Source of the DNA: a virus
Reading direction: 5' to 3' (one strand)
Length of the DNA: 34,578 nucleotides
IMG/VR virus record: IMGVR_UViG_3300044491_002832
Coordinates: 1-34,578 of that record
Shown: one piece after another, positions 2,998 through 32,592 of the stretch
How the letters are laid out: each line of letters starts with the position of its first letter
Numbering within the stretch: position 1 is the first letter of the stretch
The notes under the pieces: generated by a model
Database searches by the model: none
What the model was told of the DNA's origin: nothing
Seen by the model: the letters and a program-made list of their open reading frames with translations, nothing else
Program-made: the position numbers and the translations under genes

Positions 2998-3402
2998 ATG
3001 GCACTAAAGGTATGCAGAACCTGTAAGTTAGAAAAAGAATCTACTATGTTTGATAAAAATCCAACAGGAACATTTGGCGTTAGGGGCACTTGCAAGGTTT
3101 GTCGAAGTTCGGATAAATTTAAAATAAGAAGACAAAATATAAAAGCAAAATATGGAATAACCATGGAAGATTTTATTGAAATGTATGAGCGTCAAAATGG
3201 TTTATGTGAAATTTGTGATAGAGAACTAGATATGTTTAGCACTCGCGATAGAATGCATCATATAGCAAACATAGATCATTGCCATAAAACAAAAAAAATA
3301 AGATCAATTCTTTGTAATTACTGCAATACTGGTTTGGGAAAATTTATGGATGATGCTAGCTTATTAATAAAAGCATCTAATTATTTAAAAAAATACCAAT
3401 AG
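2998..3402 (+). CDS. Endonuclease VII-like / HNH nuclease (freestanding)
   Basis: A 134-residue protein matching the recombination endonuclease VII family. It has zinc-binding cysteine pairs CRTC (6-9), CKVC (32-35), CEIC (70-73) and CNYC (106-109), the active-site stretch IDHCHKTKKIRSILC around residues 92-106, and the family tail GLGKFMDDASLLIKASNYL. Family members resolve branched DNA or act as freestanding homing nucleases. Its position between tail fibre genes and small membrane proteins, away from replication genes and bracketed by matching stem-loops, suggests a mobile insert rather than a packaging resolvase. The start follows AGGAGA at a good distance. Family call is strong; the homing role is inference. 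Confidence 0.88.
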   Translation: MALKVCRTCKLEKESTMFDKNPTGTFGVRGTCKVCRSSDKFKIRRQNIKAKYGITMEDFIEMYERQNGLCEICDRELDMFSTRDRMHHIANIDHCHKTKKIRSILCNYCNTGLGKFMDDASLLIKASNYLKKYQ

Positions 3403-3415
3403 TGGAGTCTATTGG
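3396..3415 (+). promoter_or_regulatory. Stem-loop 2, overlapping the endonuclease VII stop codon
   Basis: A perfect 7-bp stem (CCAATAG / CTATTGG) encloses the loop TGGAGT, followed by CGGACATCAAGGAGA and ATG 3437. The left arm contains the TAG stop of the nuclease gene. Compared with the copy at 2960-2979, several stem positions change on both sides and pairing is preserved, while loop and downstream CGGACAT stay the same. Confidence 0.75.
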
Positions 3416-3436
3416 CGGACATCAAGGAGAAATAAT

Positions 3437-3730
3437 ATGCCGATAACAAAAGAAATAATAGAAGATAAAATAGAAGTTGTAGGAGACTACAAAACTATAC
3501 AAGTCAGAACAGCTACAGTCATCAAAGAAGATGGCGTAGAGCTTAGTAGGTCTTTTCATAGACACGCATTAGAATGTGTAAGCTCTGTACAAAACGATGA
3601 CGATAGTTGGACTCATACAGATACTGATGTTTCTGAAGAGTCTACAGAGGTTCAAGGTATAGCTTCAACCGTTTGGACTGATGCAGTCAAAACTGCAAAG
3701 AAAACCGCAAATGAAGCAAACTCAATATAG
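3437..3730 (+). CDS. Conserved-looking small phage protein, unknown function
   Basis: A 97-residue soluble protein with no signal or membrane segment. It is rich in Glu, Asp, Thr and Val, has a beta-rich first half (VVGDYKTIQVRTATVIKEDG), an acidic middle (DTDVSEESTEV) and a helical end with VWTDAVKTAKKTANEA. I do not recognise a named domain. It is preceded by AAGGAG downstream of stem-loop 2 and followed by GGAGA serving the next small membrane protein. Its place between fibres and membrane proteins suggests a late gene, possibly a fibre accessory protein, but that is only positional. Confidence 0.7.
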   Translation: MPITKEIIEDKIEVVGDYKTIQVRTATVIKEDGVELSRSFHRHALECVSSVQNDDDSWTHTDTDVSEESTEVQGIASTVWTDAVKTAKKTANEANSI

Positions 3731-3739
3731 GGAGACAGA

Positions 3740-3898
3740 ATGGATATAATGACTATGGTTACTTGGATAACCACTATTGTAACCGTTGCATCAATCGTTG
3801 CAGCATCCACGCCAACACCTAAAGACGATGAGTGGATCGGTAAACTTTATAAGTTTGTAGATCTTCTTGCTCTTAATATAGGCAAAGCAAAGCAATAA
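3740..3898 (+). CDS. Small single-pass membrane protein (52 aa), holin-region type
   Basis: The ATG at 3740 follows GGAGA at 3731-3735; the TAA is at 3896-3898. Residues 4-24 form one hydrophobic segment (MTMVTWITTIVTVASIVAAS), then TPTPKDDEWIGKLYKFVDLLALNIGKAK. I recognise the C-terminal form (TPTPKDD-WIGK-YK-D-LALNIGKAK) as recurrent in phage lysis regions, but have no firm name for it. It probably sits in the inner membrane with a short cytoplasmic tail. It may be a holin-like or antiholin-like protein. Confidence 0.75.
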   Translation: MDIMTMVTWITTIVTVASIVAASTPTPKDDEWIGKLYKFVDLLALNIGKAKQ

Positions 3899-3903
3899 AA
3901 TAA

Positions 3904-4254
3904 ATGTCTGAAGCTGTTTCAATAATAACCGAGCTAGGTTTTCCCATTGCGGCAGCTTTAGGTTTAGGTATTTTTGTTTGGAAGTTGATCAATAGAATTA
4001 TTGATGGAATGGAAAACAAGCTTGATACCTTAGACGATAAGGTTCAAACAAGCCTTAACACTATGGAGGAGAGAGTCTCCACAAAACTTGATAGTCAGTA
4101 CGGTATTATTGTAAGCTTAATAGATAGAGTAAGAGCCCTAGATAATCAAAGTATTAGACAGGACGTTTTGCTTAAGACCTTATTAGGAGTTCCTAATTTG
4201 GTTGATATTGACAAGATAGCAAAGGCGGACAGAGATGACCAGAGAAAAGATTGA
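3904..4254 (+). CDS. Membrane-anchored coiled-coil protein, holin/spanin-region
   Basis: A 116-residue protein with one hydrophobic segment at about residues 7-27 (LGFPIAAALGLGIFVWKLI), then a long amphipathic helix (residues 30-85; GMENKLDTLDDKVQTSLN and following), and a charged end. This layout resembles small phage membrane proteins of the lysis region (holin accessory or inner-membrane spanin type), but there is no diagnostic motif. It overlaps the start of the CsgF-like gene by 20 bases, so it is translationally joined to the curli-like module and may belong to it. There is no good ribosome site directly ahead of ATG 3904; the start is the first ATG after the upstream stop. Confidence 0.7.
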   Translation: MSEAVSIITELGFPIAAALGLGIFVWKLINRIIDGMENKLDTLDDKVQTSLNTMEERVSTKLDSQYGIIVSLIDRVRALDNQSIRQDVLLKTLLGVPNLVDIDKIAKADRDDQRKD

Positions 4255-4732
4255 TCAAGAAAGAGAAAAAGACTTAATTTGTAAAGTTGTGGTAGGCATT
4301 GGTTTGTTTTTAATTGTTGCTATTTTTATAGAAAACATAAGAGCAGACGAGATGGTGCATAAGTTTAAGTCTCCTTCTTTCTCCGGGATTGGCACCTCAG
4401 CACATTATCTAACAATAGAGAACCAACAGTTTAATCGTAAGCAAGCACTCAAAGCAGAAATAAAAGCTTTGCAGGACGAAATAGAAAGAGATAAAGAAAA
4501 TACTACTTTAGCTAGGTTTATACGTAATTTAGAGTCTAGAATTTACGCTCAGCTATCAAGACAGCTTGTAGAAAATTTATTTGGTGAAACTCCAAGTGAT
4601 AGTGGTGTTTTAAGTTTAGAAGGAAATACTATAGAGTATAATGTTGTAGACGGAATAATAACTTTAAACATAACTGACTCAGATGGTAATACGACAACTA
4701 TATCTCTCCCTATCGGTAGCTTTACTTTCTAG
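4235..4732 (+). CDS. csgF: CsgF-like curli secretion accessory protein
   Basis: A 165-residue protein. Residues 17-34 are a hydrophobic export segment (VVVGIGLFLIVAIFIENI), with possible cleavage near IRA/DEM. The mature start HKFKSPSFSGIGTSAHYL parallels the CsgF N-terminus ([24 protein letters not shown]), the part that in E. coli inserts into the CsgG channel. The helical middle (70-112) and the end EYNVVDGIITLNITDSDGN parallel the CsgF C-terminus (YIVDIANRDGQLQLNVTD). The alignment is by eye from remembered E. coli sequence. The position directly upstream of csgG matches the csgEFG order. CsgF forms a second constriction in the pore and couples secretion to nucleation at the surface. The middle helix looks longer than in E. 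coli. No CsgE is seen. Confidence 0.82.
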   Translation: MTREKIDQEREKDLICKVVVGIGLFLIVAIFIENIRADEMVHKFKSPSFSGIGTSAHYLTIENQQFNRKQALKAEIKALQDEIERDKENTTLARFIRNLESRIYAQLSRQLVENLFGETPSDSGVLSLEGNTIEYNVVDGIITLNITDSDGNTTTISLPIGSFTF

Positions 4733-5549
4733 CTGTGCGTTAATAATAGATCCGTTAGAGAATAATTTACCCCCAATCCAAAAAATAGAAAAGCCAGAGA
4801 TAGGAACATTACTTGTACCTGAACTTGCTAATATTAAATCAGCAAATAAAGTAAAGCCAGTTGTTGCTATATATACAGGTGGTTTTACAGATCAAACAGG
4901 GCAAAGAAGAAGTAATAGTTCTTATGCAACTTTTTCTTCCGCCGTTACCCAAGCCCCGGATGCTTATTTAATTCGTGCATTAAAACACGCAGGAAGTAAC
5001 CATGATGGATTCTTTGAGGTTGTAGAAAGAGTTGGTTTAGATAATGTAACTAAAGAGCGTCAAATAATCAGAAGCACAAGACAAGAATTTAAAGAAGATA
5101 AAAAATTACAGCCACTAATGTTTGCTGGCTTGATAATGCAAGGTGGTGTGATATCTTATGAAAGTAATATAAAAAGTGGTGGTGCTGGAGCTCGTTATCT
5201 TGGCATTGGAGTGTCAAGGCAATACAAACAAGATACCGTAGCAATCTCTTTGAGAACAGTTTCCGTGAGTACCGGGAAAGTATTATTAGAAGTATTAGTT
5301 ACAAAAACGATATTAAGTGCTTCTATAGATCAAGATGTTTTTCGTTTTATTACCGATTCAACAGAGCTTGTAGAAATAGAAAATGGTTTGGTCAGAAACG
5401 AGTCAATCAATATAGCACTTCAAACGGCAATCGAAACGGCTGTATTACAAACTATAAAAGAAGGAGCAACCAGAGGATATTGGAATATAAATGAACAGAC
5501 TAAAATTATTAATTGCGATGCTGATTGTGTCGCCTCTATACGCGGCTGA
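4683..5549 (+). CDS. csgG: CsgG-like outer-membrane curli secretion lipoprotein
   Basis: A 288-residue protein close in length to bacterial CsgG. It has a lipoprotein signal with lipobox LLSSC (Cys18), and the family hallmarks: YTGGFTDQTGQRR (64-76), FSSAVTQAPDAYLIRAL, FEVVERVGLDN, then GGVISYESNIKSGG and AGARYLGIG (154-176), LRTVSVSTGKVL (190-201), KTILSA, DVFRFI and ALQTAIETAV. CsgG forms a nonameric outer-membrane channel for curlin export. The start at 4683 gives an ideal lipoprotein signal and overlaps csgF by 50 bases in another frame, with no clear ribosome site, implying coupled translation. The last ~20 residues include CDADC and are not typical. Family call is very firm; presence in a phage is the notable point. 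Confidence 0.95.
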   Translation: MVIRQLYLSLSVALLSSCALIIDPLENNLPPIQKIEKPEIGTLLVPELANIKSANKVKPVVAIYTGGFTDQTGQRRSNSSYATFSSAVTQAPDAYLIRALKHAGSNHDGFFEVVERVGLDNVTKERQIIRSTRQEFKEDKKLQPLMFAGLIMQGGVISYESNIKSGGAGARYLGIGVSRQYKQDTVAISLRTVSVSTGKVLLEVLVTKTILSASIDQDVFRFITDSTELVEIENGLVRNESINIALQTAIETAVLQTIKEGATRGYWNINEQTKIINCDADCVASIRG

Positions 5550-6201
5550 TAACGAAATATATGTTGATCAGTCAGGATCTACTGCAAACATAGATCTAGA
5601 GCAACTAGGATCATCTAATATTATTGGTGGTTTAAACTCTGTTGCAGGTACACTCACAGCCTTAGACTTAGATGGATTAAACTTAACACTAGACATAAAC
5701 CAAATAGGTAATACTAATAAATTCCTTGGTGATATCTTAGGTGATAATATTACTGGCTTTTTTGAATTTGATGGAGATGGTAATAACTTTACTATACAAG
5801 GCGATCCAGACAATACCTATGGTATTGATAACTCAGACTACAACGTAGATGTAACTGGTAGCTCTAATACATTCACACTTGATACAGGTACAACAGCATT
5901 AGCTTCTGGTCTTGACTTAGACTGGATAATCAACGGCGACAGCAACACATTTGATTTTGATATAAACTATGATGGTGCTACTAACTATGTAGATGTAGAT
6001 GGAGATAGCAATACAATAAACTTTACAGGAAGCGGATATGCAGGTGGGTATTTCTATCTTGACCAAACAGGAAACAGTAGAACATTCAATATCATACAGT
6101 CATCAACTCTTGCTGTTGATTGGCTACAGATTAACTCTACTGGTTCTAACGGTACTGTTTGTGTCGTTCAGAACGATGGCGGAACAACCACCAGCTGTTG
6201 A
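5491..6201 (+). CDS. Secreted curlin-like (CsgA/CsgB-type) repeat protein
   Basis: A 236-residue protein with a clean Sec signal peptide (MNRLKLLIAMLIVSPLYA, then AD). The mature part has about eight degenerate repeats ending in G-x-x-N followed by a beta pair, for example DQSGSTANIDLEQLGSSN, DINQIGNTN, DVTGSSNTFTLDTG, DVDGDSNTINFTGSG and LDQTGNSRTFNIIQSS. This resembles curlin repeats (Q-x-G-x-x-N-x-x-x-x-Q), but many Gln positions are Asp and the protein is very acidic. It ends with a Cys-containing segment (TVCVVQND through the C-terminal Cys). It overlaps csgG by 59 bases. Likely role: the substrate exported through CsgG/CsgF, forming an amyloid-like or beta-solenoid fibre. The curlin assignment rests on repeats plus context and could instead be a soluble beta-helix. 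Confidence 0.8.
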   Translation: MNRLKLLIAMLIVSPLYAADNEIYVDQSGSTANIDLEQLGSSNIIGGLNSVAGTLTALDLDGLNLTLDINQIGNTNKFLGDILGDNITGFFEFDGDGNNFTIQGDPDNTYGIDNSDYNVDVTGSSNTFTLDTGTTALASGLDLDWIINGDSNTFDFDINYDGATNYVDVDGDSNTINFTGSGYAGGYFYLDQTGNSRTFNIIQSSTLAVDWLQINSTGSNGTVCVVQNDGGTTTSC

Positions 6202-7231
6202 TATAGGAAACATATCTGAACTAAATGGTTCAGCACAGATACTAAGAGACAAACCTTATGAAGCAAAAGAGTCTTTTGATATACAACAAAATGATGAAGC
6301 AATTACGACTAATGGTCGTATGGCTATTACGTTCCTAGACGACTCCAAGGTAAGACTTACAGAAAACTCTCAGCTAACCATAGACGAATACATCTTTGAC
6401 CCCAACCCTAGCAAGTCTAAGATGGCTATTACCTTTGGTCTTGGCACAGCTAGGTTTATTACTGGCGGTCTAAATAAGATAGATAAAAACAATATAGATC
6501 TTAAAACACCCACAGCAAACATAGCAATTCGTGGTACTGATTTCACAGTTACGGTAGATGAAATTGGCAGGTCTTTGCTTATACTTTTACCAGATGAATT
6601 TGGTAATTCTAGTGGTGAGATATTAGTAACTACAGCCATGGGTACAGTTACACTTAATAAACCTTACGAAGCTACAACAGTAGATGTCTTTGAGAAATCA
6701 CCTAGTTCACCTGTAATCTTAGACTTAACACTAGACCTTATAGACAATATGCTAATTGTTAATCCACCTAAAGAAGAGGTGGTTGTAGAAGAAACAACAC
6801 AAACCAAAAAGAAAAACATACTAGACTTTGATGGTTTAGATGAGGACTTCTTAGAAGAAGATTTCTTAGACTCAGAGAAAGAACTGGAGTTTACAGAGTT
6901 AGATATAAACTATCTTGATGTAAACTTCCTAGAAGATTTGTTAGATGTCATAGACGCATTACAGGAAATACAACAAGAAGATCAGCTAGCACAAGACGCT
7001 ACATCTACTAATATTGTTGGTACACAGCTAGGTCAAGATTTAAAAACGCAAGTAACATCTTTTATAACAGGAGAAGTATTAACACTTATGCGTAGCGTGA
7101 GTGACACAGCTAGAGTAGATATAGACTCTGCTGGTAGTTATACTGTTATCTTTATACAAGATGGTGCATCCAATGTTATTAAAATAAATGGTGGCACTGG
7201 TAGCACTATCAAAATCACTCAAAGTAATTAA
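6038..7231 (+). CDS. FecR-domain envelope protein with C-terminal curlin-like repeat
   Basis: The FecR domain spans about residues 50-170: IGNISELNGSAQILRD, GRMAITFLDDSKVRLTENSQL, then TPTANIAIRGTDFTVTVDE. An acidic, low-complexity linker follows (about 250-305, rich in DFLEEDFLD-like repeats), then a helical region and a final segment (about 367-397) with FIQDGASNVIKINGGTG and STIKITQSN, which looks like a curlin repeat. Two starts are possible. ATG 6038 has AGGA at good spacing and gives a hydrophobic leader (LLLLIGYRLTLLVLTVLF, then RTMA), but overlaps the curlin gene by 164 bases. ATG 6176 (351 residues) lacks a ribosome site and leader. I prefer 6038 because FecR domains with this layout are normally extracytoplasmic. 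Role inferred: envelope sensor or fibre anchor. Confidence 0.8.
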   Translation: MQVGISILTKQETVEHSISYSHQLLLLIGYRLTLLVLTVLFVSFRTMAEQPPAVDIGNISELNGSAQILRDKPYEAKESFDIQQNDEAITTNGRMAITFLDDSKVRLTENSQLTIDEYIFDPNPSKSKMAITFGLGTARFITGGLNKIDKNNIDLKTPTANIAIRGTDFTVTVDEIGRSLLILLPDEFGNSSGEILVTTAMGTVTLNKPYEATTVDVFEKSPSSPVILDLTLDLIDNMLIVNPPKEEVVVEETTQTKKKNILDFDGLDEDFLEEDFLDSEKELEFTELDINYLDVNFLEDLLDVIDALQEIQQEDQLAQDATSTNIVGTQLGQDLKTQVTSFITGEVLTLMRSVSDTARVDIDSAGSYTVIFIQDGASNVIKINGGTGSTIKITQSN

Positions 7232-8979
7232 TGAAGCGACTACTATTCACCATACTTATAATACTAGTGTTGCCTGTCTTATATCAGTCAACGCCCACAG
7301 AAACACTAAAACTAAAAGTATTTGATTATCTTGTACCTAAACAAGATCCTTCTGGCTACTTTACTATTCTTAACATAACCGAAGAAGATATAGATGCAGA
7401 GGGCGGATATCCTATACCAAGACAAAGATTAGCAGAAATTAATAAACAAATATTAGATAGTGGTGCTTTAGGTGTGGGTTGGGTTATTGCTTTCCCTCAC
7501 CCAGATCGACTCGGGGGAGATAAAGAATTTGCAGAGTCTCTTCGACAAGGTACAACAATATTAGCTATGTTTGAAGCCCCAAATCAAATATACCCAAAAA
7601 CAGTTGGAACGGTAATGTTAGGATCAGGAAAAGGTGGTATGTTGTCCAAAGGTGTAGTTCAAAATACTATCAACCTTAGAAATTATGTACAACAGGGTAT
7701 TGCAACTGCACCTACTGATATAGACAACTTAGTCAGAAGAATCCCTTTATTATTAAAAACACCAGATGGATATGTTCCTGCGTTTGGTACAGAAGTTTTA
7801 AAAGCATTAGTTGGGGCTGATACCTATGTAATTAAAAGTAATGATCTTGGTATAGAAGAAATAAGAGTAAAAGGATTGCCACCAGTTAAAACAGATAGCC
7901 TTGGTCGTAAGTGGATTAGTTGGGTTGATACACCGCAAACTAATTTACAAGAACTAGATGTTGCAAATAAATTTGTATTTGTTGGTATTACTGCTCCAGG
8001 AATCATGCCACAAATTGCAACTCCAACTGGATTATTAGAACCACACAAAATTCAAACAGCATTATCTGAGTCAATTCTTATAGAAAACTCTCCAAGGATT
8101 CCAGAATGGTCATTGGTAGCTGAAATTTTAATTTTTGGAATTTTCGTGTCGTTGACATGGCTTGTAATCAATTATCTCGGTGTAGTTAAGGGTCTAAGTA
8201 TCGCTGTAATTTTGCTATTCACCACGGGCTTCTTAGGAGCATATAGCGTTCAGAAGGGCTATTTGATAGATTTTTCATGGACTTTTATCTCACAAATCAT
8301 AACTTCTACTATTGCCTTCTATATTAACTACAAAAAACAATATAAATTGCGTCAACAAATTAAAAAACAGTTTGAACATTATTTAGATCCAAGACAAATT
8401 AAAAGACTTCAAGATAATCCCAGTCTGCTGAAACTCGGGGGAGAGAAAAAAGAAGCAACATTTTTATTTACAGATGTTAGGGGCTTTACCTCTTTATCAG
8501 AAAAATTAGAACCAGAAGAAGTAACTGAGATTATGAATAAGGCATTAACAATACAATCAGACGCTGTGCAAAAATATGGTGGCATGGTAGATAAATATAT
8601 TGGTGATGCAATGATGGCTATATTTAATGCACCTATAGATTTAGATGATCACAGAAGCAGAGCAGTGGAAACAGCAATAGAAATTAAACAAAAAATGAAA
8701 GAAGCAAACTTGGGTATAGAGATTGGTATAGGAATTAATACTGGTATTGCTGTTATAGGTAATATGGGAAGCGATACTAGGTTTGATTACTCTGCTATTG
8801 GGGACTGCGTAAACACAGCAGCAAGGCTAGAATCAGCAACCAAAGAGGTGGGAGAAGATATATTGATAGGATATCCTACTGCCATAGATTGCAAATTTAG
8901 GTTAAAATTACTTAAACCAATAAAAGTTAAAGGCAAGAGCCAACAACTGTCAATTTATACAGTAGATAGAGGAAAGTAA
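7231..8979 (+). CDS. CHASE2-domain membrane adenylate/guanylate cyclase (class III)
   Basis: A 582-residue protein. It has an N-terminal membrane segment (1-20), a CHASE2-type extracytoplasmic sensor (about 25-285), three membrane helices (about 291-316, 319-340, 347-368), a linker, and a class III cyclase domain (405-578). Catalytic residues are all present: metal-binding Asp415 (FTDVRGFTSLSE) and Asp459 (KYIGDAMMAIF), base-recognition Lys455 and Asp525, and transition-state Asn528 and Arg532 (GDCVNTAARLES). The Lys/Asp pair favours ATP, so cAMP is the likely product. The start overlaps the FecR stop (TAATG). CHASE2 cyclases next to FecR proteins occur in bacterial genomes, so this pair was probably acquired as a unit. 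Domain call is firm; the role in a phage is unknown. Confidence 0.95.
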   Translation: MKRLLFTILIILVLPVLYQSTPTETLKLKVFDYLVPKQDPSGYFTILNITEEDIDAEGGYPIPRQRLAEINKQILDSGALGVGWVIAFPHPDRLGGDKEFAESLRQGTTILAMFEAPNQIYPKTVGTVMLGSGKGGMLSKGVVQNTINLRNYVQQGIATAPTDIDNLVRRIPLLLKTPDGYVPAFGTEVLKALVGADTYVIKSNDLGIEEIRVKGLPPVKTDSLGRKWISWVDTPQTNLQELDVANKFVFVGITAPGIMPQIATPTGLLEPHKIQTALSESILIENSPRIPEWSLVAEILIFGIFVSLTWLVINYLGVVKGLSIAVILLFTTGFLGAYSVQKGYLIDFSWTFISQIITSTIAFYINYKKQYKLRQQIKKQFEHYLDPRQIKRLQDNPSLLKLGGEKKEATFLFTDVRGFTSLSEKLEPEEVTEIMNKALTIQSDAVQKYGGMVDKYIGDAMMAIFNAPIDLDDHRSRAVETAIEIKQKMKEANLGIEIGIGINTGIAVIGNMGSDTRFDYSAIGDCVNTAARLESATKEVGEDILIGYPTAIDCKFRLKLLKPIKVKGKSQQLSIYTVDRGK

Positions 8980-8980
8980 A

Positions 8981-9466
8981 ATGAAATTTGGATTAATTAA
9001 AAATGTAGTAGGAGCAATAGCACCAACGCTAGGCTCTGCTCTAGGAGGACCTTTAGGAGGTCAAGCAGCTAGTGTGGTTGCAAAAGTATTAGGATGTGAT
9101 TCAGATCCAAAATCTATTAATACAGCCATTCAACAAGCATCACCAGAACAAATGATAGAGCTTAAAAAAGCAGAACAAGCTTTTGAAGTTCAAATGAAAG
9201 AATTAGAAGTAGATGTGTTTAAGCTAGAGACACAAGATAAACAAGATGCTAGATCTAGATTTAGTAAAGATTGGACTGCCAGAATAATAGGTGTGGCTGT
9301 TGTTGGTGGGTTTATGGGTTATATATTTCTTGTTACCTTACAACCACCAGAGCAAAACAGTGAAGCATTAATTAATTTAGTTCTAGGATATCTAGGCGGA
9401 TTAGCTAGTGCTGTGATATCTTTTTATTTTGGTGCATCTAACTCATCAGACGATAAAAAGGAATAA
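8981..9466 (+). CDS. Holin (3TMs-type family)
   Basis: A 161-residue protein resembling the phage Holin_3TMs family. The N-terminal half has APTLGSALGGPLGGQAASVVAKVLG, then SPEQMIELKKAEQAFEVQMKELE and the conserved QDARSRFSKDW. The C-terminal half has two strong membrane helices (about 103-122, IIGVAVVGGFMGYIFLVTL, and 131-150, INLVLGYLGGLASAVISFYF). The expected role is inner-membrane pore formation at lysis. It starts two bases after the cyclase stop, so it is probably cotranscribed with the curli-like module, and is followed closely by tail genes. Confidence 0.85.
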   Translation: MKFGLIKNVVGAIAPTLGSALGGPLGGQAASVVAKVLGCDSDPKSINTAIQQASPEQMIELKKAEQAFEVQMKELEVDVFKLETQDKQDARSRFSKDWTARIIGVAVVGGFMGYIFLVTLQPPEQNSEALINLVLGYLGGLASAVISFYFGASNSSDDKKE

Positions 9467-9468
9467 AC

Positions 9469-11148
9469 GTGGCAGGATTTAGACTTACAGCTTTTAGCGG
9501 ACTTAATGAAAAGATCGCCCCAAGACTGTTGCCAGAAGATGTGGCTCAAAATGCTGAGAATGTTTTTTTAGACAGGGGTAGAATAGAAGGTCTACCGCAA
9601 GATGTTAATGACTCTTCAGAGCCAAGTTCTCACCCAGCATCAAATATAGATGGAACAACAAAAACTATATTTAAAGCAACAGATAACGAATGGTTTACTT
9701 TTTCAGATGATGTAGATGTAATTAAAAGTCCAATTAAAGAAGATTCTTTTAGTAGATTTTATTTTACAGGAGTAAGTGGATCTTCAGGATTTCCAAGAAT
9801 GGTTGATGCTGCTAACGGTATATCAGGATCTGGACCATACCCTGTAACATCATACAGGCTTGGATTACCAACTCCACCAGCTTTTACGACAGGACCAAGC
9901 GTTGACAATACGACTGCGGCAGAAGGTGCAGCGACAAGCTCAAGAGCATATGTTTATACAGAGATAACAAGTTTTGGAGAAGAGGGTCCTCCTAGTGTAG
10001 TAACAGCAGCAGATATAGTAGATGCAGCCGATGGTGCAACAGTAACTTTAGCTTTACCAGCAGCGACCAGTGGTGTCTATACCATAGCCAAAAGAAGAAT
10101 TTATAGAGCAGACTTAAACGGTATATTTAGATTTGTAAAAGATGTATCAGGAACCTCATCAGGAAATACAACAGAAGCGGTTAAGGACTCCTCACTCGGG
10201 GAAGAAATAGAATCAGCAGATAACTTAGCACCGCCAGATGATGTAACAGCAAATCACCCAGACGGACCTATGTTTGGTATTACAACCATGCCTAATGGAA
10301 TTACAGCAGGATTTAGTGGTAATACATTGTTATTTAGTGAGGCTTATTTACCTCATTCATATCCAATAGCAAATCAATTAACAACAAAAGAAGATATCGT
10401 TGGTATTGTTTCTATAGCTTCAGGACTATTAGTAACAACAAAAGGTAAGCCACTTATAGCGGGCGGAACAGATCCTTCAGCAATGTCACTAGTAGAGATA
10501 GATGCTAACTTACCAAGCTCTAATAAAAGATCATTAGTTGATATGGGCGAGTATGCTATATACGCATCTCCAGATGGTTTAGTTATAGCAAGTAATTCAG
10601 GTGTTAGTTTAGTAACTCAACAAATATTTACTAGAGATCAATGGCAAGACTACTATCCAGACAATATTGAAGCCTATGAATACGAAGGAAAGTATTTAGG
10701 TTTTACTTGGGATGGAACAAACTCAGCAACAAAGAAAGGTTTTATTTTTGATCCAAGGGGTCAAAAGAATGCTTTTGTTAATTTAGATTTCTATGCAACT
10801 GCTGGATTTAATGATAGAGAGAACGATGAGTTATATTTAGTTATAGGTGGAGTTCTTAAAAAGTTTGCTAGATCCTCTAGTGCAAGAACTTATACATGGA
10901 AATCAAAAGAGTTTTATAGCAACCTTCCTATTTCCCCCGGCGTAGCCAAGGTTAGTGCTGAGTCTTACAATAGCTTAACATTCAAATTATACGCAGACGG
11001 TTCTTTAAAACATACTCAAACAGTAACTAATAATAATCTATTTAGATTACCGGGAGGATATAAGGCAAAAGCATTTCACATAATTTTAGAGGGCACAGAT
11101 CCAATAAATGAAGTTTGTGTTTATGAAAGCCCTAGGGAGATTACCTAA
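9469..11148 (+). CDS. Tail nozzle / stabilisation-type virion protein
   Basis: A 559-residue protein with a GTG start preceded by AAAAGGAA. The N-terminus (AFSGLNEKIAPRLLPEDVAQNAENVFLDRGRIEGLP) is the signature of podovirus tail proteins of the T7 gp12 / P22 stabilisation type, where a short strand region precedes a beta-propeller. An Ig/FN3-like insert is seen around residues 140-240 (AYVYTEITSFGEEGPPS, RRIYRADLNGIFRFV), then blade-like motifs and a beta-rich C-terminus. Role: distal tail tube or nozzle that holds DNA before ejection. It shares a TAATG junction with the next gene. The exact family is assigned by motif memory only. Confidence 0.65.
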   Translation: MAGFRLTAFSGLNEKIAPRLLPEDVAQNAENVFLDRGRIEGLPQDVNDSSEPSSHPASNIDGTTKTIFKATDNEWFTFSDDVDVIKSPIKEDSFSRFYFTGVSGSSGFPRMVDAANGISGSGPYPVTSYRLGLPTPPAFTTGPSVDNTTAAEGAATSSRAYVYTEITSFGEEGPPSVVTAADIVDAADGATVTLALPAATSGVYTIAKRRIYRADLNGIFRFVKDVSGTSSGNTTEAVKDSSLGEEIESADNLAPPDDVTANHPDGPMFGITTMPNGITAGFSGNTLLFSEAYLPHSYPIANQLTTKEDIVGIVSIASGLLVTTKGKPLIAGGTDPSAMSLVEIDANLPSSNKRSLVDMGEYAIYASPDGLVIASNSGVSLVTQQIFTRDQWQDYYPDNIEAYEYEGKYLGFTWDGTNSATKKGFIFDPRGQKNAFVNLDFYATAGFNDRENDELYLVIGGVLKKFARSSSARTYTWKSKEFYSNLPISPGVAKVSAESYNSLTFKLYADGSLKHTQTVTNNNLFRLPGGYKAKAFHIILEGTDPINEVCVYESPREIT

Positions 11149-17355: not shown

Positions 17356-20300
17356 GTGGCAGATCCAAGACTTGATCCCTTCTCACTTATTCCCGAAGAA
17401 GAAAAAGATAATTTAGTAAAAGATGTTCTTAATCTAGATCCGCAAACCAGTCTTCCAGAGGATCCACAAAAAGACGAACAGTCGTTTATTAACTTTTTTT
17501 CTCCAATAGGAGGTGTTGGAATTGGTCCCTTTTCTCTAAAACCTGAAGTGGTTATGTCTATGCCAAAGGCATTATTTACTTCTGCAAAAGCTTTTCCATC
17601 AACTTTTAAAACTGCTTTAAATAATCAAGAATACAGAATGAGGCAGTCCGCCTTTGCAATAGAAACGGGTCAGGAAGATCTTGCAAAAATTCCAATTGGT
17701 TTTGGAGAAGGTGCAGCTTCAAGACTTTTAATTGGAAGAGAGGAAGAGTTAAGAAAAAAAGCAGAAACAGAGTTTGCCAATCTTCCTAATTTTGAAAAAC
17801 AAGAAATAGTAAATAGCTATATAAATTTTTTAGAAGAAAATACTAATGAATACAATGCACTGCAAGAAAGAATCAACACAATACAAAAAGAAGCGAAGTT
17901 AACCAAAACAGAAAAAGCTTTGTCTGCCGGTTTTGATTCTTTGTTTTTAATGACACCAGCAATTTTAGCCACCCTGGGTACAAAAAATCCATCATTTATG
18001 TATGGCATGTTACCCGTGTTTGGATTATATGAACAAGGATCATCGTATAGACAGGCTACTATGAGCGGTTTATCTCACAAGGAAGCAATTAGAGTTTCAA
18101 ATCTTAATGCTTTATCTGAGATAGGAACAGAGCTTATTCCCCTACCCTTTGTCACAAAAACATTAAAAAAATACTGGAAGACAAATGGAAGTACGGTTAA
18201 AACATTTGCAAGAGATGGATTTACAACAGCAACCCTGGAGTTAATTGGCGAAAATGTAAATACAATTTTTCAAGAAACAAACAATGCATTAAGCGGAGTT
18301 AATACAGACCTTGCATTTGCTTGGGCTAATAAAGACAACCCATCATATGAAGGACCCTCATGGGTTGATGTAATGTTAGATAATGCTTATATGACATCTA
18401 TTGCAACCGTTGTTGGTGCTGGAGGAATGGTTAGCATGCAGGGAGCTGCTGCTTTCTCTCCTGAAATAAAAAAATCTTTAAATGAGCTAGATCCAAACCT
18501 TGCTAGAAGAATAGCAAGAGAGTTAGAAATAAATGTACAACAAGTAAATTCAAACTATAAAGCAATTGATGACACCTTTAGCTGGCTTCATGCTGGAAAA
18601 CAATTTGATCCAGGAGCAAGATCCATAATTCAACAAGAAACAGAGGGAGAAATAGTTCCGCTGGATCAAAGAACAGAAGATGATTTTATAGCCCCTTCAA
18701 GACAATATTATAATTTTGTTATGCCAGAGATATTGCCTGACGAATATCTTGCTGGACAAATTATAAAAAACAACCCAATTAACGAAGAGCTAAGCAAAGA
18801 AGAAATAGAATTAGCCAATACTTTGCAGGCAGAAATAAGTGAGCTTGAAGGAATTGATCTTAAGACTGTTTTAACAGAGGGTAAAAAAGTATTAAATATT
18901 ATGGGTATAACAGAGGCTGTTGACCCAGAAACATTTGATACACAAATACAAGAAAGAATTAATCAATATGATTCACAAATATTAGCCACCAAAGATGAAA
19001 TAAAACTAAAACAATTAAAAGACGATCAGAAAGTTTTAAAAGACTTTTTAGTTAAAAAACAAAAACCGCAAGCCCCTCTTTCTCAAAAAATATTTAAACC
19101 AGAATTTGGCGAAGATATTACTTTAGAAGAGGGTGAGGCAAAAAGAAAAGCAGATATAGGTGCAAATAAAACATTTATAGATCCAAAAATACAAGAGCCA
19201 TCATCTCCAGAGGCTGTAAATAATGTTAAACAAGACATAGTTTTATCAAGAAAATACAATAAGGCTAACTTAGCAACATTTGAAGACATTGATAACTTTG
19301 GAATTAACTTTCAAGACAAAAAATATAGTGAACAAAATATTGGAAGAACTTATTCTGGTGCCGGAGATCTTCCAGCCATCAGAGATTTTAATGATGTAGA
19401 GGTTAATGCTGTTTCAGAAGTCATAAATAATTTAATTGAGATGGGCTTGCCAAAACAAGTGTTTGAGGGAATACCGTTTATGGGCATTCACAGCAACACG
19501 CAAGAATTTGAGATGCAAGAAAATACGTCCTATGGACAATATTTTCCTGGAGCATCAGATAAATATATAACATTAGCAGCTTCACAAATACCACAACAAT
19601 TTGTAACACAAGAAACTGCTGCTGATTTTTCTAATATAAATCAAAATGATTTTAATCTTGGTTCTCTAGCTGAGCTGCAATCAACCTTAGCTCATGAAAT
19701 TGGTCATCATATAGATTTTGGTTTTGTGCAATTCAAACAATTTTCTGCACGACAAGAGCCCTTATCAGCATCATCACCATTGTTTGAGCCTATTGATTTT
19801 GCTTTTGAGTTTAAAAACATTCTTAGCAAAAACAATAAACAATCAATAGATGAGTTGACTGTTGAAGAGCTTAGAGACTATAAGTTTGAAACTGGCGGCT
19901 CTGTAATGCAGGAAATGTTTAACTTATATATAAAAAACAGAGACTCTAGCAGCCCGTATTCTGGTCAATTATTTAGCTATCCGTTTGATAGATACTTAAT
20001 AGACACATATAAAAACTTTCCAACCCTTGACCAAAGTGCACTCGTAAGCAAACAAGATAGAATTGACCTGTCGGCTGAAGTATTCGCACAAATGATTGGA
20101 ATCAATTATACTAACCCTAAACTATTGGATAGCTATCCAAATAGTAAAAAGCTTTTACAGGATATAAATAATGTCTTTATTAATAACGAAATTTCACAAA
20201 TTGGTATCGGATTACGAGACACGTTTCAATCAGATCGTTCCGATGCAGATTCTAAAATATACACCAAGAGACTTGCTAGAGAGCAAGCTCAGGAACAGTT

Positions 20301-23300
20301 TGGATACGAATCAACCAGTGAAAGAGTGGGAGAACCTCCTGTTAAACGAGACAGGGACGACCTTCGACTTGCAAAACAAGAATCAAACTATGTAGAAATA
20401 GGCGAGCTAAAGCCTGATAAAAATAATCTATACGCTGGTGCACCAAGGACAGCACCAGGACAATTTAAAAATACTCAAAAAGACTTTGACAATCTTGTAA
20501 AAGATCTTGTCAAGATGGCAGAACAAAAAGATATATCTTTACTTGCTGAAAGTAGACATTGGTATAGAAACATAAATCAAGAGATAGACTCATTGGTCGC
20601 TGGAGACCCAGTTCTTAAAGAAAATGTTTTAAGAATGCTAACAATATATTCTTCACAAACTCCGGTAGAAACAAACCTTGCCTATACTTTAAGATCTTTA
20701 GTGTCTCTTGCCAAAGGAGGAGATCCTCTACCAGGATTCCAGCCTCTTGCTGGAGAGTATGCTAAAAAAGCAATGGAAGCCCAAGACTTTGGTCAAAAGT
20801 TGGATGGAGTAGGATTTAAGCTACAAAGTTTTTATGAAAATCTAACTGGCAAAAATCCTAATGCTGTAACCATGGATACCTGGATGTTTAAAATGTTGGG
20901 CTTTGAAAAGGGTCAAAGTGCTATAGCAAATCATAGGTATGGAACAGCAGTAATACAAAAAGCTACCGAAGTTTATAATCAAAAAAATAATGACAATCTT
21001 ACTCCAATGGAAATGCAGGCTGTTCTATGGACTTGGGTTAGAAATAAAGAGTTGGTTAATCAAGGTAAAACCCCCGAGTATATAGGTTACGAAACTTATT
21101 TAGACAAAGCTTCTGCTATTGTTACTGGAGAGGTAATACCAACAGAGATATTGTCAGAATTTGCTTTTGCAGAAAAACTAAATGCAAAACAAAAAGCAAA
21201 GTTAACCAGAGAGCTGTTAGATGTAATAACAACATCTGAAGGAAAGAACAAGATTTTAGATGCATTACCTGGAACAGGCTTGTATAAATTCTCACACAGT
21301 TTTGGTGCTTATGACGGCAAAATAAATCCAAACATTTTAACAAGTTTAATTTTAGAAAAAGTTGAGGGAGAACAACAGTTTAGTGAATTGGATCTTTCTT
21401 ATGCTGATGACTTTTTAAGAGCATGGGGCTATGTTTTTAGACAAGAAGCTATGCCATATTTTGTTTCTAATGAAAACATATCAGACGCTGATGCATTTGA
21501 TGTCAATAATGAGTCAGTAAATATTGGATCATATATTAAATTTATAGATACAAAATCTAACACACCTTTTGAAATGTCTGGAATATTAAGAAGACAGTTG
21601 CAAACAGCTTTTAAAAAGGTTGGGATTGATGGGTTTACGCAAATGGGTCAAGACTCAATATCAGCTATAAACTTTAAATTTGATGGCAATGTTATAGAAA
21701 ACTTTAATGAAAAAGTAGAGCAGGCATTAAGCTCTGTTGGCGTAGAGGGTGTTGGGTTTGCTGTTGAGCACAATATAAAATATAATACACAGTACCTAAC
21801 TAATAATTGGAATGAGGATACAGATGGACAAGGTTACATACAAGGAAGACTTGAGGAAGGAAGCATACTCAAAAGGCTTGATGGTATCAGGGCAGAAGTT
21901 GATGAAGTCCTCTACAAATACAGAGACGAAGTCCAGCCAGAAGATGCAGACGCAAGCTTCCCAAGCACAGGACCAGAAGCAAGATCAATAGAAAAACCTC
22001 TTGCTAAAAAAATAGTTTTACCCAAAGATAAGCTTGATAAAATAGATGAAGCTATAGGGAGCACCACACCACCAACCCCACCAGCCCCTCCCGGGGGAGT
22101 AGATCCAAGCGGAAAGTTTTCACCACAAGAAGTTGGCACATGGGCTAACTTTATAGAAGCAACAAATATTAAGGTTGCAAATAAATTTGGAAGGCTCTGG
22201 ACTATTGAAGAAGATATAATCAAGCAGTTTGGTGTTAATGGAATTATCAACAGATTAGTAGAAGCAGGAATAGACCCAAACTCAAAAGACTGGAGAGTTA
22301 CCACACAAACAGATATATTCTCTGGTCGTGCAAAAGACAGATTAAGAGATGTAAGAGATGATTACTATATTCCCTTACTTGAATATCTCACCAGTAAAAA
22401 TATTACAGAAGAAGAGTTCAATCATTTTATTTATAACCTGCATGCACCAGAAAGAAATAAATATTTACCAACCCTTTTTGAAGAAAAACTTTTAGAAGCT
22501 CAGCTAGAATTAAAAGAAGTTGAGGCAAGCGAAACCGCAAGTAAACAAGATCTAGCAAACGCTAGAAGAAAGCTAACAATTATTCAAAAGAAAATGACAA
22601 AAGCTGAGAGAGGTTCTGGAATATACACAGAAGATGCTATAGCAACACTTAAAAAATATGGCGTAATCTTTGATATGAAAACAATGAAAGCTAGAGGATC
22701 TTTAACAAAAGGTAAAAATTTGCTTAAGGCTTACGAAGACTATTTAAAACCCATGATTGACAATACCAGAAGAACATACGTTGACTCTGGTCTTATTCCA
22801 GAGGAAACCGTATTAGATTGGGATGCAAGATATAAGTATTATGTTCCTCTTGTTGGCTTTGCAGAAGATACTTTAATCGACCCTGAAACGGGGAGAGAAT
22901 TAGAAAGACCAAGATCTTCTAATCAACGTATAAGCACACAAATGACAGTGTCAGGCTCGTTAGTTAAAAAAGCCACCGGTAGAGAATCAGAGGCAAGCTC
23001 ACCACTACAGCAGTCAGTTATACAAGCTACAGCAGCAGCCATTGAGGCAGAAAAAAATAGAGTAACAAAATCTTTGGCAGATCTTGCGAGAGCTTTTCCT
23101 AGTGATTTATGGGAAGTCTCTGAAGATGTGGGGCAAATAAAGAAGGTTGACGCGACCTGGGATCCTGTTAAAGGAAAATCAAGAGTTGGTTTTAAAGAGG
23201 ATGGCGTACAAAAATATGTAGAAATATATGATCGCAGGCTTGCACAAGGCTTTGATAATTTTGATTCTACTGTAACTGGTGCTGGCATGAAAGCATTTAG

Positions 23301-25354: not shown

Positions 25355-26155
25355 CTAAGATATCAGAGTATTACTTGCCTCACAAGCTTCGCTTAAATAA
25401 TCTTTTGATAGGTGTGCATACCTATTTACAATATTAAAATCGGACCACCCACCAAGATGTTGGAGCGTATGCAGAGGAGTACCGTTCTGCACATGGTGGG
25501 TAGCCCAGGTATGGCGGATATCATGCCATCTAAATCCTTCCAAGTTTGCTTTCTTTAATGCGTTATACCATCCAGTATTAGAGGCTCTACTGATTTTTCT
25601 TCCTGAGTAGGTAAAAACATAAGGGCTTTGTTTTTTAATTGATTTTAGAAGCTCTCTGCATTTTTCGTTTAAAGGAACGCAAAGACTTTTACCATTTTTG
25701 GTTTCGGTTCCATCAATGGCTATTTGATCTTTTTTAATATCTTCCCATTTAAGATTAAAGCAGTTGGACATTCTAACCCCAGTAAGGAGGGAAAAGATAA
25801 AAGGTTTCTGCAGGTGCAGGGGAAGCACATTGTGCAGTTTCCTTATATCTTCAAGAGTAAAGTATTTAGTTTTTTTAGGGAACTCCCTTACTCTTTTAAC
25901 AGAGGGCTTAGTGTCCAACCACCCTAACTCTTCATATGCATACATAAGTATTGCACGGAAGTAGTTTAAATATCTATTGACAGTTCCGGGACTCCCCTTT
26001 ATTCCCGATCTGGCATTAGCGATATGTTCTTTTGTAATACTTCTTAAGTCTATATTAGCAAACAATGGATCAAAATACCTTCTATAAGTAAAATCATTTT
26101 TACCCATCTTGTTAAACCTATAATACTGTCTTACAGCGTCATTCCAAGTATTCAT
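25355..26155 (-). CDS. int: Tyrosine recombinase / phage integrase
   Basis: A 266-residue site-specific recombinase. It has an N-terminal SAM-like core-binding domain (about 1-90) and a catalytic domain (95-266) with Arg128 (TGVRMSN), Lys153 (ETKNGKS), His211 and Arg214 (HDIRHTWATH), Trp237 in place of the second His (LGGWSD) and nucleophile Tyr246 (NRYAHLS). It is shorter than lambda Int and lacks an arm-binding domain, as in many compact phage integrases. Role: integration and excision of the phage genome, hence a temperate lifestyle. It is the last gene of the leftward operon and overlaps the stop of the 40-residue gene (ATGA). No attachment core resembling a tRNA end could be recognised nearby. 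Confidence 0.95.
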   Translation of the reverse strand: MNTWNDAVRQYYRFNKMGKNDFTYRRYFDPLFANIDLRSITKEHIANARSGIKGSPGTVNRYLNYFRAILMYAYEELGWLDTKPSVKRVREFPKKTKYFTLEDIRKLHNVLPLHLQKPFIFSLLTGVRMSNCFNLKWEDIKKDQIAIDGTETKNGKSLCVPLNEKCRELLKSIKKQSPYVFTYSGRKISRASNTGWYNALKKANLEGFRWHDIRHTWATHHVQNGTPLHTLQHLGGWSDFNIVNRYAHLSKDYLSEACEASNTLIS

Positions 26156-32155: not shown

Positions 32156-32333
32156 ATTTGAAACCTTTAGAAGTTTTTGCACTTACATGCATGTTGAGTG
32201 TAATGTTGAAAGATCTAAAAACGGAGATGCCTCAGTAGAGTATAATAGGTACTTGGTTGATAACTTAGATTTTTTATATAAAGAATATGAAAGGCAGAAC
32301 ACCTACAAAAAAAGAAAAGGAATGGATGGATAA
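32145..32333 (+). CDS. Small unknown protein (62 aa)
   Basis: A 62-residue protein, MELKFETFRSFCTYMHVECN then VERSKNGDASVEYNRYLVDN and LDFLYKEYERQNTYKK. It overlaps the upstream gene by 11 bases and the Ref-like gene by 47 bases. It has no motif I can name. Tight overlaps on both sides support translation as part of the replication operon. Confidence 0.55.
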   Translation: MELKFETFRSFCTYMHVECNVERSKNGDASVEYNRYLVDNLDFLYKEYERQNTYKKRKGMDG

Positions 32334-32592
32334 AATATCTGAATATGGTTGTATTGTTTGCAGAGAAAATTTCAACTGTATTACACCAGCAGAAATTCAC
32401 CATATTGACGGAAAGACAAAATTAAATGCACACCTTATGTCACTACCTCTTTGTTATAAACATCACAGAGAGGGTGCAAATAATGAATCGTATGTCTCCA
32501 GGCATCCTTTTAAAAAAGAATTTGAAAAAAGATATGGAAAGCAAACCGATCTATTAAAAAGATTACAGGATATTATTTATGACAACTCGTGA
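32287..32592 (+). CDS. Ref-like HNH nuclease (recombination enhancement family-like)
   Basis: A 101-residue protein with Cys22 and Cys25 (GCIVC), AEIHHIDG (His38, His39), LPLCYKHHREG (Cys56, His59, His60), RHPFKKEFEKRYG (His73) and a helical end. This order matches the P1 Ref / phage HNH family, in which Ref is a RecA-dependent nuclease that cuts displaced strands. The usual Ref N-terminal extension is short here. It may aid recombination with the Erf/YqaJ pair encoded leftward. It overlaps upstream and downstream genes. Confidence 0.75.
   Translation: MKGRTPTKKEKEWMDKISEYGCIVCRENFNCITPAEIHHIDGKTKLNAHLMSLPLCYKHHREGANNESYVSRHPFKKEFEKRYGKQTDLLKRLQDIIYDNS

Follow-up and report, generated by a model that had tools for sequence, protein, structure and literature searches.

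The window analysed here is the whole of IMG/VR virus record IMGVR_UViG_3300044491_002832 (34,578 bases), from a marine phage, and the subject of this report is a predicted viral type VIII secretion (curli) cassette that it carries. Open reading frames (ORFs) and Pfam matches place genes for CsgF, CsgG, a curlin-like protein, a FecR-domain protein and a CHASE2 cyclase, in that order and on one strand, at positions 4235-8979; a sixth gene, termed TM116, is found at 3904-4254, so that the set begins one gene before CsgF. An initial annotation of this sequence had described a complete set of five overlapping genes at 4235-8979: the identities and order of these five are borne out (all ORFs are present, four with Pfam matches and the curlin by synteny, homology and motif), and the boundary of the set moves upstream by one gene. 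The placement between tail-fibre genes and a holin-like gene, in a phage and not a bacterial setting, likewise holds.

Earlier work on such genes includes a 2020 paper on pelagimyophages by Zaragoza-Solas et al. and a 2022 paper on phage Melnitz by Buchholz et al. The available text of PMC9599517 (Wittmers et al. 2022) describes a single conserved cluster of CsgF, CsgG, CsgA/B, FecR and adenylate cyclase, found in full in nine podovirus genomes and in myophages (pelagiphages) and transferred between viral families, and the claim of the initial annotation that a full set with substrate, FecR and cyclase was undescribed therefore fails. According to the available portions of two other papers, csgF, csgG and neighbouring genes occur in pelagimyophages, for which 'sibling capture' was proposed (PMC7029224, 2020), and csgG was counted among the most abundant in a survey of marine phages that carry virulence genes (PMC7003362, 2020). 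The present analysis adds an integrase-bearing lineage, a cassette position just ahead of genes that are lysis-related or holin-like, the questioning of two labels, and the missing cyclic AMP (cAMP) receptor; the lysis position, the label mismatch and the missing receptor were not found described in the available marine-phage curli literature (in the available main text of PMC9599517 the words holin, endolysin, integrase and temperate do not occur, and lysogen occurs once).

Gene content and conservation of the cassette

A search with the CsgG of the window yielded loci on 72 other IMG/VR viral contigs, giving a set of 73 that includes near duplicates. All six genes, in the order TM116-CsgF-CsgG-curlin-FecR-cyclase, are present at 56 of the 73 (52 of them uncut); the remaining 17 are short of outer genes only at contig ends, and the order is broken at none. 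Neighbouring genes overlap, as the initial annotation had stated. By the longest ORFs, whose true starts are uncertain, least surely placed for FecR, the overlaps in the window are 50 nt for CsgF/CsgG, 59 nt for CsgG/curlin, 164 nt for curlin/FecR and 1 nt for FecR/cyclase. Across loci, overlaps are seen at every TM116/CsgF (59/59), CsgF/CsgG (63/63) and CsgG/curlin (63/63) junction, at 68 of 69 curlin/FecR junctions (median 164 nt) and at 57 of 68 FecR/cyclase junctions. At 6038-6201 the 3' end of the curlin gene and the 5' end of the FecR gene, read in different frames, share as much as 164 nt, which places the coding sequence of the FecR leader within the curlin gene. In two contigs an additional ORF lies between FecR and the cyclase, DNA-methyltransferase-like in G025 (L084:14954-15631) and nuclease-like in G042 (L100:2347-2679), both labelled by eye.

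All six genes are under purifying selection. Median dN/dS between the window and chosen relatives, with saturated-synonymous comparisons dropped, is 0.045 for TM116 (5 of 11 comparisons kept), 0.096 for CsgF (8 of 11), 0.052 for CsgG (11 of 11), 0.064 for the curlin (9 of 11), 0.060 for FecR (10 of 11) and 0.182 for the cyclase (10 of 10). A one-off chimera, which the initial annotation had named as a danger, is excluded by this selection and by the recurrence of the order in 72 other viral contigs. More generally, an assembly chimera of bacterial and phage DNA, or a decaying passenger, found no supporting point and is so improbable that it can be set aside: the same order and junctions appear in many contigs, two relatives of the window end in direct repeats, and the bacterial csgG loci found have no FecR or cyclase match beside csgG.

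Families for CsgF, CsgG, FecR and the cyclase exist in PHROG v4, all labelled 'unknown function'. In a collection of 50,697 named-phage records, csgG is carried by six phage records (two of HTVC008M and one for each of four near-identical Melnitz isolates); these are the very six records with FecR, and six of the nine with the cyclase at a coverage of at least 80%. A csgG resembling the enterobacterial type, on OR851715 (L076, 'Salmonella phage S.Kent 1-2-1'), an unverified clone of 1.5 kb, was left out of the counts as probable host DNA.

TM116 (3904..4254, + strand; 116 aa), recognised by its conserved position 5' of csgF, has a single hydrophobic helix at its N terminus (by eye), followed by a charged C-terminal region. 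It is present at 61 of the 73 loci, and at the other 12 csgF is missing or starts at most 59 nt from the contig end. Its length is generally 115-116 aa, with 92-101 aa in L064 and L071 (two copies each) and 86-127 aa in the TM116-like genes of HTVC008M, Melnitz and two contigs from metagenome-assembled genomes; tblastn against the named-phage collection returned only the four Melnitz records, all csgG-bearing, and did not report the divergent HTVC008M copies. No kinase family is among the 18 Pfam families matched by 28 TM116 members, 11 of which show a weak sub-threshold match to YvrJ, and HATPase_c was found in none of 32 phage records, HTVC008M and Melnitz-3 included. The gene before csgF is called 'histidine kinase' in the available text of PMC9599517; we read this mismatch as a labelling problem, because HTVC008M and Melnitz have TM116 homologues in the same place.

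CsgF (4235..4732, +), the predicted curli chaperone and pore partner, matches PF10614 at 7.1e-18 (Pfam matches are quoted above curated cut-offs unless stated), and the motif F[KRGA][SN]P[SA]F is found in all 63 sequences with an intact start, so that both marks of the CsgF family are present; phmmer against solved structures gave no meaningful match. CsgG (4683..5549, +), the predicted outer-membrane curli export channel and a lipoprotein, is placed by HMM search where the initial annotation had put it (PF03783, 3.6e-46); the lipobox pattern accompanies the domain in 67 of 67 sequences, and a profile of nine phage CsgG proteins matches solved CsgG chains at 5.9e-60.

The third gene (5491..6201, +) encodes a predicted secreted substrate, named curlin because of its synteny, its homology to curlin-annotated phage proteins (31% and 27% identity to those of HTVC008M and Melnitz) and the motif Q.G.{8}Q.G..N, which is found in all 69 viral curlin-like sequences, the window included, as are two C-terminal Cys. 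PHROG and NCBIfam gave no match for it (E up to 0.1), and in Pfam nothing passed the cut-off, the only hit being DUF3060 at 0.33. AlphaFold2 predicts a beta-rich protein (pLDDT 84), for which Foldseek gave no match at E <= 0.001; the top VIA-align rows are SufB/SufD-type chains (Z 15.7-17.1) and polysaccharide lyases (Z ~12), matches that suggest a generic beta-solenoid, and the absence of a CsgA chain among the 50 rows listed excludes nothing.

The FecR-domain protein (6038..7231, +; PF04773, 2.2e-10, scanned from 6125) has a signal-peptide-like start (by eye) and a curlin-like tail. Among 72 sequences (68 viral loci and four of myophage type), 70 end in the pattern [IVL].[IVL].Q, the misses being L062 (a split ORF) and L077. 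A curlin-repeat profile, built from 42 repeat units in curlins of phages and bacteria and run over 724 phage proteins, ranks five FecR proteins at the top (E 0.05-0.67) and a sixth at 1.5, which is weak evidence, and does not list the other seven of the 13. The pattern Q.G..[NKR] is present in the last 45 residues of 13/13 FecR proteins, which are homologous and hence not independent, compared with 20/698 other proteins; for the stricter Q.G..N the counts are 5/13 and 2/698. With FecI/FecR iron signalling the window shares the PF04773 domain only: its FecR carries a leader and a curlin-like tail (both by eye), and no sigma-factor family was found among ten proteins scanned across 2998-11148. 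A role of the cassette FecR as an iron regulator is therefore unlikely.

The last gene (7231..8979, +) encodes a CHASE2 sensor (PF05226, 1.9e-27) fused to a class III nucleotide cyclase (Guanylate_cyc PF00211, 2.1e-19). The catalytic positions examined, which we take to be the two metal-binding Asp, the substrate Lys and the transition-state Asn and Arg, are intact in 67 of 67 covered viral sequences, and the cyclases of Melnitz and L078 have Ser in place of the Asn. No cNMP-binding family was found in 30 phage records, many of them fragments, chosen from the 44 records of at least 10 kb (the window and 43 of the 72 other loci), nor in HTVC008M and Melnitz-3, nor in 73 of 78 SAR11-family genomes, which are incomplete. 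Class III cyclases were found in two of the 78, one of which, by its coordinates, is the phage contig L077. A cAMP-CRP route has been suggested in print, by analogy with E. coli; if the host belongs to SAR11, that route would be without a recognisable receptor. This is a constraint and not proof, as the host of the window's lineage may be another bacterium. The envelope signalling proposed in the initial annotation is possible, but neither the phage records searched nor most of the SAR11-family genomes yielded a cAMP-binding domain to receive such a signal.

Downstream genes and phage lineage

What follows the cassette was surveyed at the 50 loci with at least 1,500 nt 3' of the cyclase, with a limit of 450 nt and ten lysis queries that were themselves taken from genes following the cassette in representative contigs. 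At all 50 loci a labelled lysis gene or Hol161, a holin-like membrane protein, starts within that limit, as compared with a lysis-query match downstream of 25 of 641 background genes of at least 80 aa (49 of 641 within 3 kb); the loci are related, and 50 is therefore not a count of independent events. The downstream sets consist of a 3TM holin with an M15 endolysin (22 loci), Rz/Rz1 spanins with a lysozyme (5), and Hol161 either with a lysozyme (5) or alone (18, the window among them), so that a labelled lysis gene (PHROG lysis, or Pfam holin, peptidase M15 or phage lysozyme) is present at 32 of the 50. The same positional constraint thus holds across six phage groups and three different sets.

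Hol161 (8981..9466, +) matches phrog_1544, of unknown function, and its assignment as holin-like comes from its position, including that between the cyclase and the phage lysozyme at 5 of the 50 loci. Relatives occur in 407 named-phage records, and among the matches listed (the best 25 of the 407) most are 'hypothetical protein'; one adjoins a DD-peptidase-like gene in Vibrio phage 1.243.O, and another lies among hypothetical genes in Pseudomonas phage E217. A relationship to the 3TM holin was considered, and hhalign shows none. In the contigs of the window's lineage that were read no lysis query matched except Hol161, and a Pfam scan of ten other window proteins revealed no lysis family; because Hol161 alone is found there, the link to lysis is inferred in this lineage.

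This position gives reason to consider that the cassette may be a lysis-timing device, in which the CsgG/CsgF pore, TM116 and the cyclase would gate or trigger lysis in place of fibre export. The available text of PMC9004378 (2022) reports csgGF in Melnitz and proposes, on synteny grounds, that it acts in lysis as a pinholin or secretin; TM116, a small membrane protein, weakly resembles YvrJ; and in the window's lineage, with no labelled lysis gene recognised, a pore with a lysis role is conceivable. At 32 of the 50 loci, however, a substitute pore is unneeded and thus unlikely, because labelled holin, endolysin or spanin genes come next; the non-lytic or pre-lytic pore suggested by the initial annotation stays conceivable in the window's own lineage. 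The curlin and FecR are, moreover, about as constrained as CsgG in dN/dS, and the myophage-type loci L074, L075, L077 and L078, Melnitz included, gave no lysis-query match (0/4) in the 1.0-2.9 kb covered 3' of the cyclase. We regard lysis timing as rather unlikely.

The window also encodes a tyrosine integrase (25355..26155, - strand; phrog_1, 8e-55; PF00589), Erf- and RecE-like proteins, an O-like replication protein and a DnaB-like helicase. Its lineage is marked by an internal virion protein (9469..11148, +; phrog_511, 9.3e-130) whose nearest named relatives are at ~30%. In the 44 records, many of them fragments, the integrase family exceeds the cut-off in nine, all in the window's lineage, with one more partial match below it, and PolA is found in one; PolA was not detected in the window, itself a fragment, or in its relatives G023 (52.3 kb) and G036 (54.0 kb). 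These two relatives look complete because their contigs end in direct repeats (112 and 91 bases), and both carry the integrase. The nearest large terminase to that of G023, among the matches listed, is from Roseobacter phage CRP-7 (35%); those of Stx-converting phages are at 31%. The window thus probably represents a podovirus-like, temperate lineage distinct from the PolA-bearing HTVC023P type, as judged from gene content.

A temperate lineage bears on the proposal, also made in the initial annotation, that the cassette is expressed from a prophage and alters the surface of the lysogen, leading to biofilm or phage exclusion. The integrase lends this lysogenic conversion some support, as does the enrichment of csgGF in temperate sediment viruses reported in the available text of PMC9636769 (a 2022 survey of auxiliary metabolic genes). 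The records of the other phage groups, many of them fragments, have no integrase match. The cassette lies inside the structural gene cluster, and structural genes usually stay silent in prophages. A search for prophages by the internal virion protein gave no match in 397 SAR11-order and 385 class-level genomes, though it was made without a positive control. An inspection by eye for attP beside the integrase showed only hairpin-like sequence. On balance, lysogenic conversion seems quite unlikely.

The cassette also appears to transfer between phages. Fourteen contigs, the window and 13 read further, fall into six groups by gene sharing; of the window's 39 genes, 20-34 are shared with each of the six contigs that make up the rest of its group and 6-12 (the cassette and a few other genes) with the remaining seven. 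The proteins of other groups can nonetheless be closer to the window's than those of its own group, and the cassette therefore appears mobile: CsgG is 93% and 87% identical to the window's in L015 and L030 of other groups, as against 83% and 80% in L038 and L059 of its own group (L040 and L002, which share the window's internal virion protein, are at 88% and 96%). A genome scan found seven csgG loci in bacterial genomes. Three (L077, L078 and L079, filed under Pelagibacter, Rhodobacteraceae and Pirellulales) resemble, in gene content, phage contigs that were binned with bacterial genomes, and carry the module or its first genes; L080-L082 are alphaproteobacterial loci, L080 and L082 also with csgF matches, and without a FecR or cyclase match beside csgG in the stretches available (only 3.8 kb for L081); L083 is a fragment.

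Proposed function

Among described systems the nearest is the type VIII secretion module of HTVC023P-type podoviruses and of myoviruses, which, in the available source text, has like the window a small gene followed by CsgF, CsgG, curlin, FecR and cyclase, and no CsgE. The window differs from it in having an integrase and a DnaB-type helicase, with PolA undetected in the stretch available, in lacking a second curlin gene, and in that its cassette lies directly 5' of a holin-like gene. In HTVC008M and Melnitz every module gene is recognisable (CsgG 42% and 38% identical to that of the window), but these are myophages with two TM116-like genes and a second curlin gene. Downstream of their cyclase come hypothetical genes or a tape-measure gene on the opposite strand, and the 1.0-1.1 kb covered there contains no lysis match. 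Bacterial curli operons have CsgG, CsgF and a curlin-type substrate in common with the window; CsgE was not found in the phage records, and the bacterial loci L080-L082 have no FecR or cyclase match at csgG.

We hypothesize that the cassette is a viral curli system of the pelagiphage kind already described, serving amyloid export late in infection, a reading to which we give a probability somewhat above even (about 0.55) from homology, gene order, conservation, purifying selection, the intact catalytic residues and the position ahead of labelled lysis genes or Hol161. The cassette would be transcribed late in infection together with the tail and lysis genes, and the CsgG channel with CsgF would be built in the outer membrane and export the curlin-like protein. 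The FecR protein would be secreted to the periplasm, where, given its curlin-like tail, it may dock onto the fibre or cap it and may report the state of the fibre to the cyclase through the periplasmic CHASE2 domain. An amyloid coat shortly before lysis could be of benefit by keeping neighbouring cells near the burst or by blocking rival phages. Expression of the module in metatranscriptomes, according to the available text of PMC9599517, supports this reading.

Several results weigh against amyloid export. CsgE, part of the canonical curli system, was found in none of 32 phage records, many of them fragments (the E. coli control was detected). The window curlin is unmatched by Pfam Curlin_rpt at E up to 1, as is the first curlin of HTVC008M (the second matches at 5.2e-8), and our curlin-repeat profile omits it at E up to 10. 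AlphaFold2 failed on the FecR protein (pLDDT 39; the model was not used), so that the docking idea depends on a short motif. Melnitz-infected cells showed no clumping though the module is present (PMC9004378, in its available text). Finally, the position before lysis genes may only reflect a common insertion spot; it is not seen at the four myophage-type loci above, and the gene that follows the cassette in the window is holin-like by position only.

The absence of CsgE, the periplasmic cap, also bears on the suggestion, made in the available texts of PMC7029224 and PMC9599517, that CsgG is an uptake pore admitting nutrients or cofactors to the infected cell: because no CsgE was found in the 32 records, the pore may stay open. 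An uptake function leaves the conserved curlin, FecR and CsgF unexplained, and we consider it improbable. A controller of lysis that senses contact or fibres is comparably doubtful; here curlin export and the FecR tail would gauge the outer envelope, the CHASE2 cyclase would convert that reading into a cyclic nucleotide, and an unrecognised receptor lacking a canonical cAMP-binding domain would set the timing of lysis via the genes directly downstream. If true, it would constitute a new signalling pathway in hosts mostly without recognisable cAMP receptors.

Under the amyloid-export reading, the presence of such genes in phages that infect abundant marine bacteria suggests a change of the cell surface before lysis. 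The published labels 'histidine kinase' and 'iron regulator', both questioned here, shape current models, and the census together with the label and receptor points makes the published hypotheses testable.

Other features of the window

Just 5' of the cassette, an Endonuclease VII gene (2998-3402), possibly of a mobile endonuclease, is followed by a 52-aa ORF with an N-terminal hydrophobic stretch (3740..3898, +), identified from its translation; its region is conserved in 6/6 aligned relatives, and partial matches occur in Azospirillum phage Cd and an uncultured marine phage. Rfam gave no match in the window, tRNA scans found none in the window or in 23 contig pieces, and promoter- and terminator-like counts were not clearly above those of shuffled sequence. 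A single ORF of 2,642 aa with LPD38 and DUF7178 domains fills 17356-25284, and two relatives have shorter versions (2,483 and 2,082 aa) with ~25-28% identity to its first third. At 32287-32592 the window encodes a RecA-dependent nuclease-like protein (PF16786, 5.7e-19).

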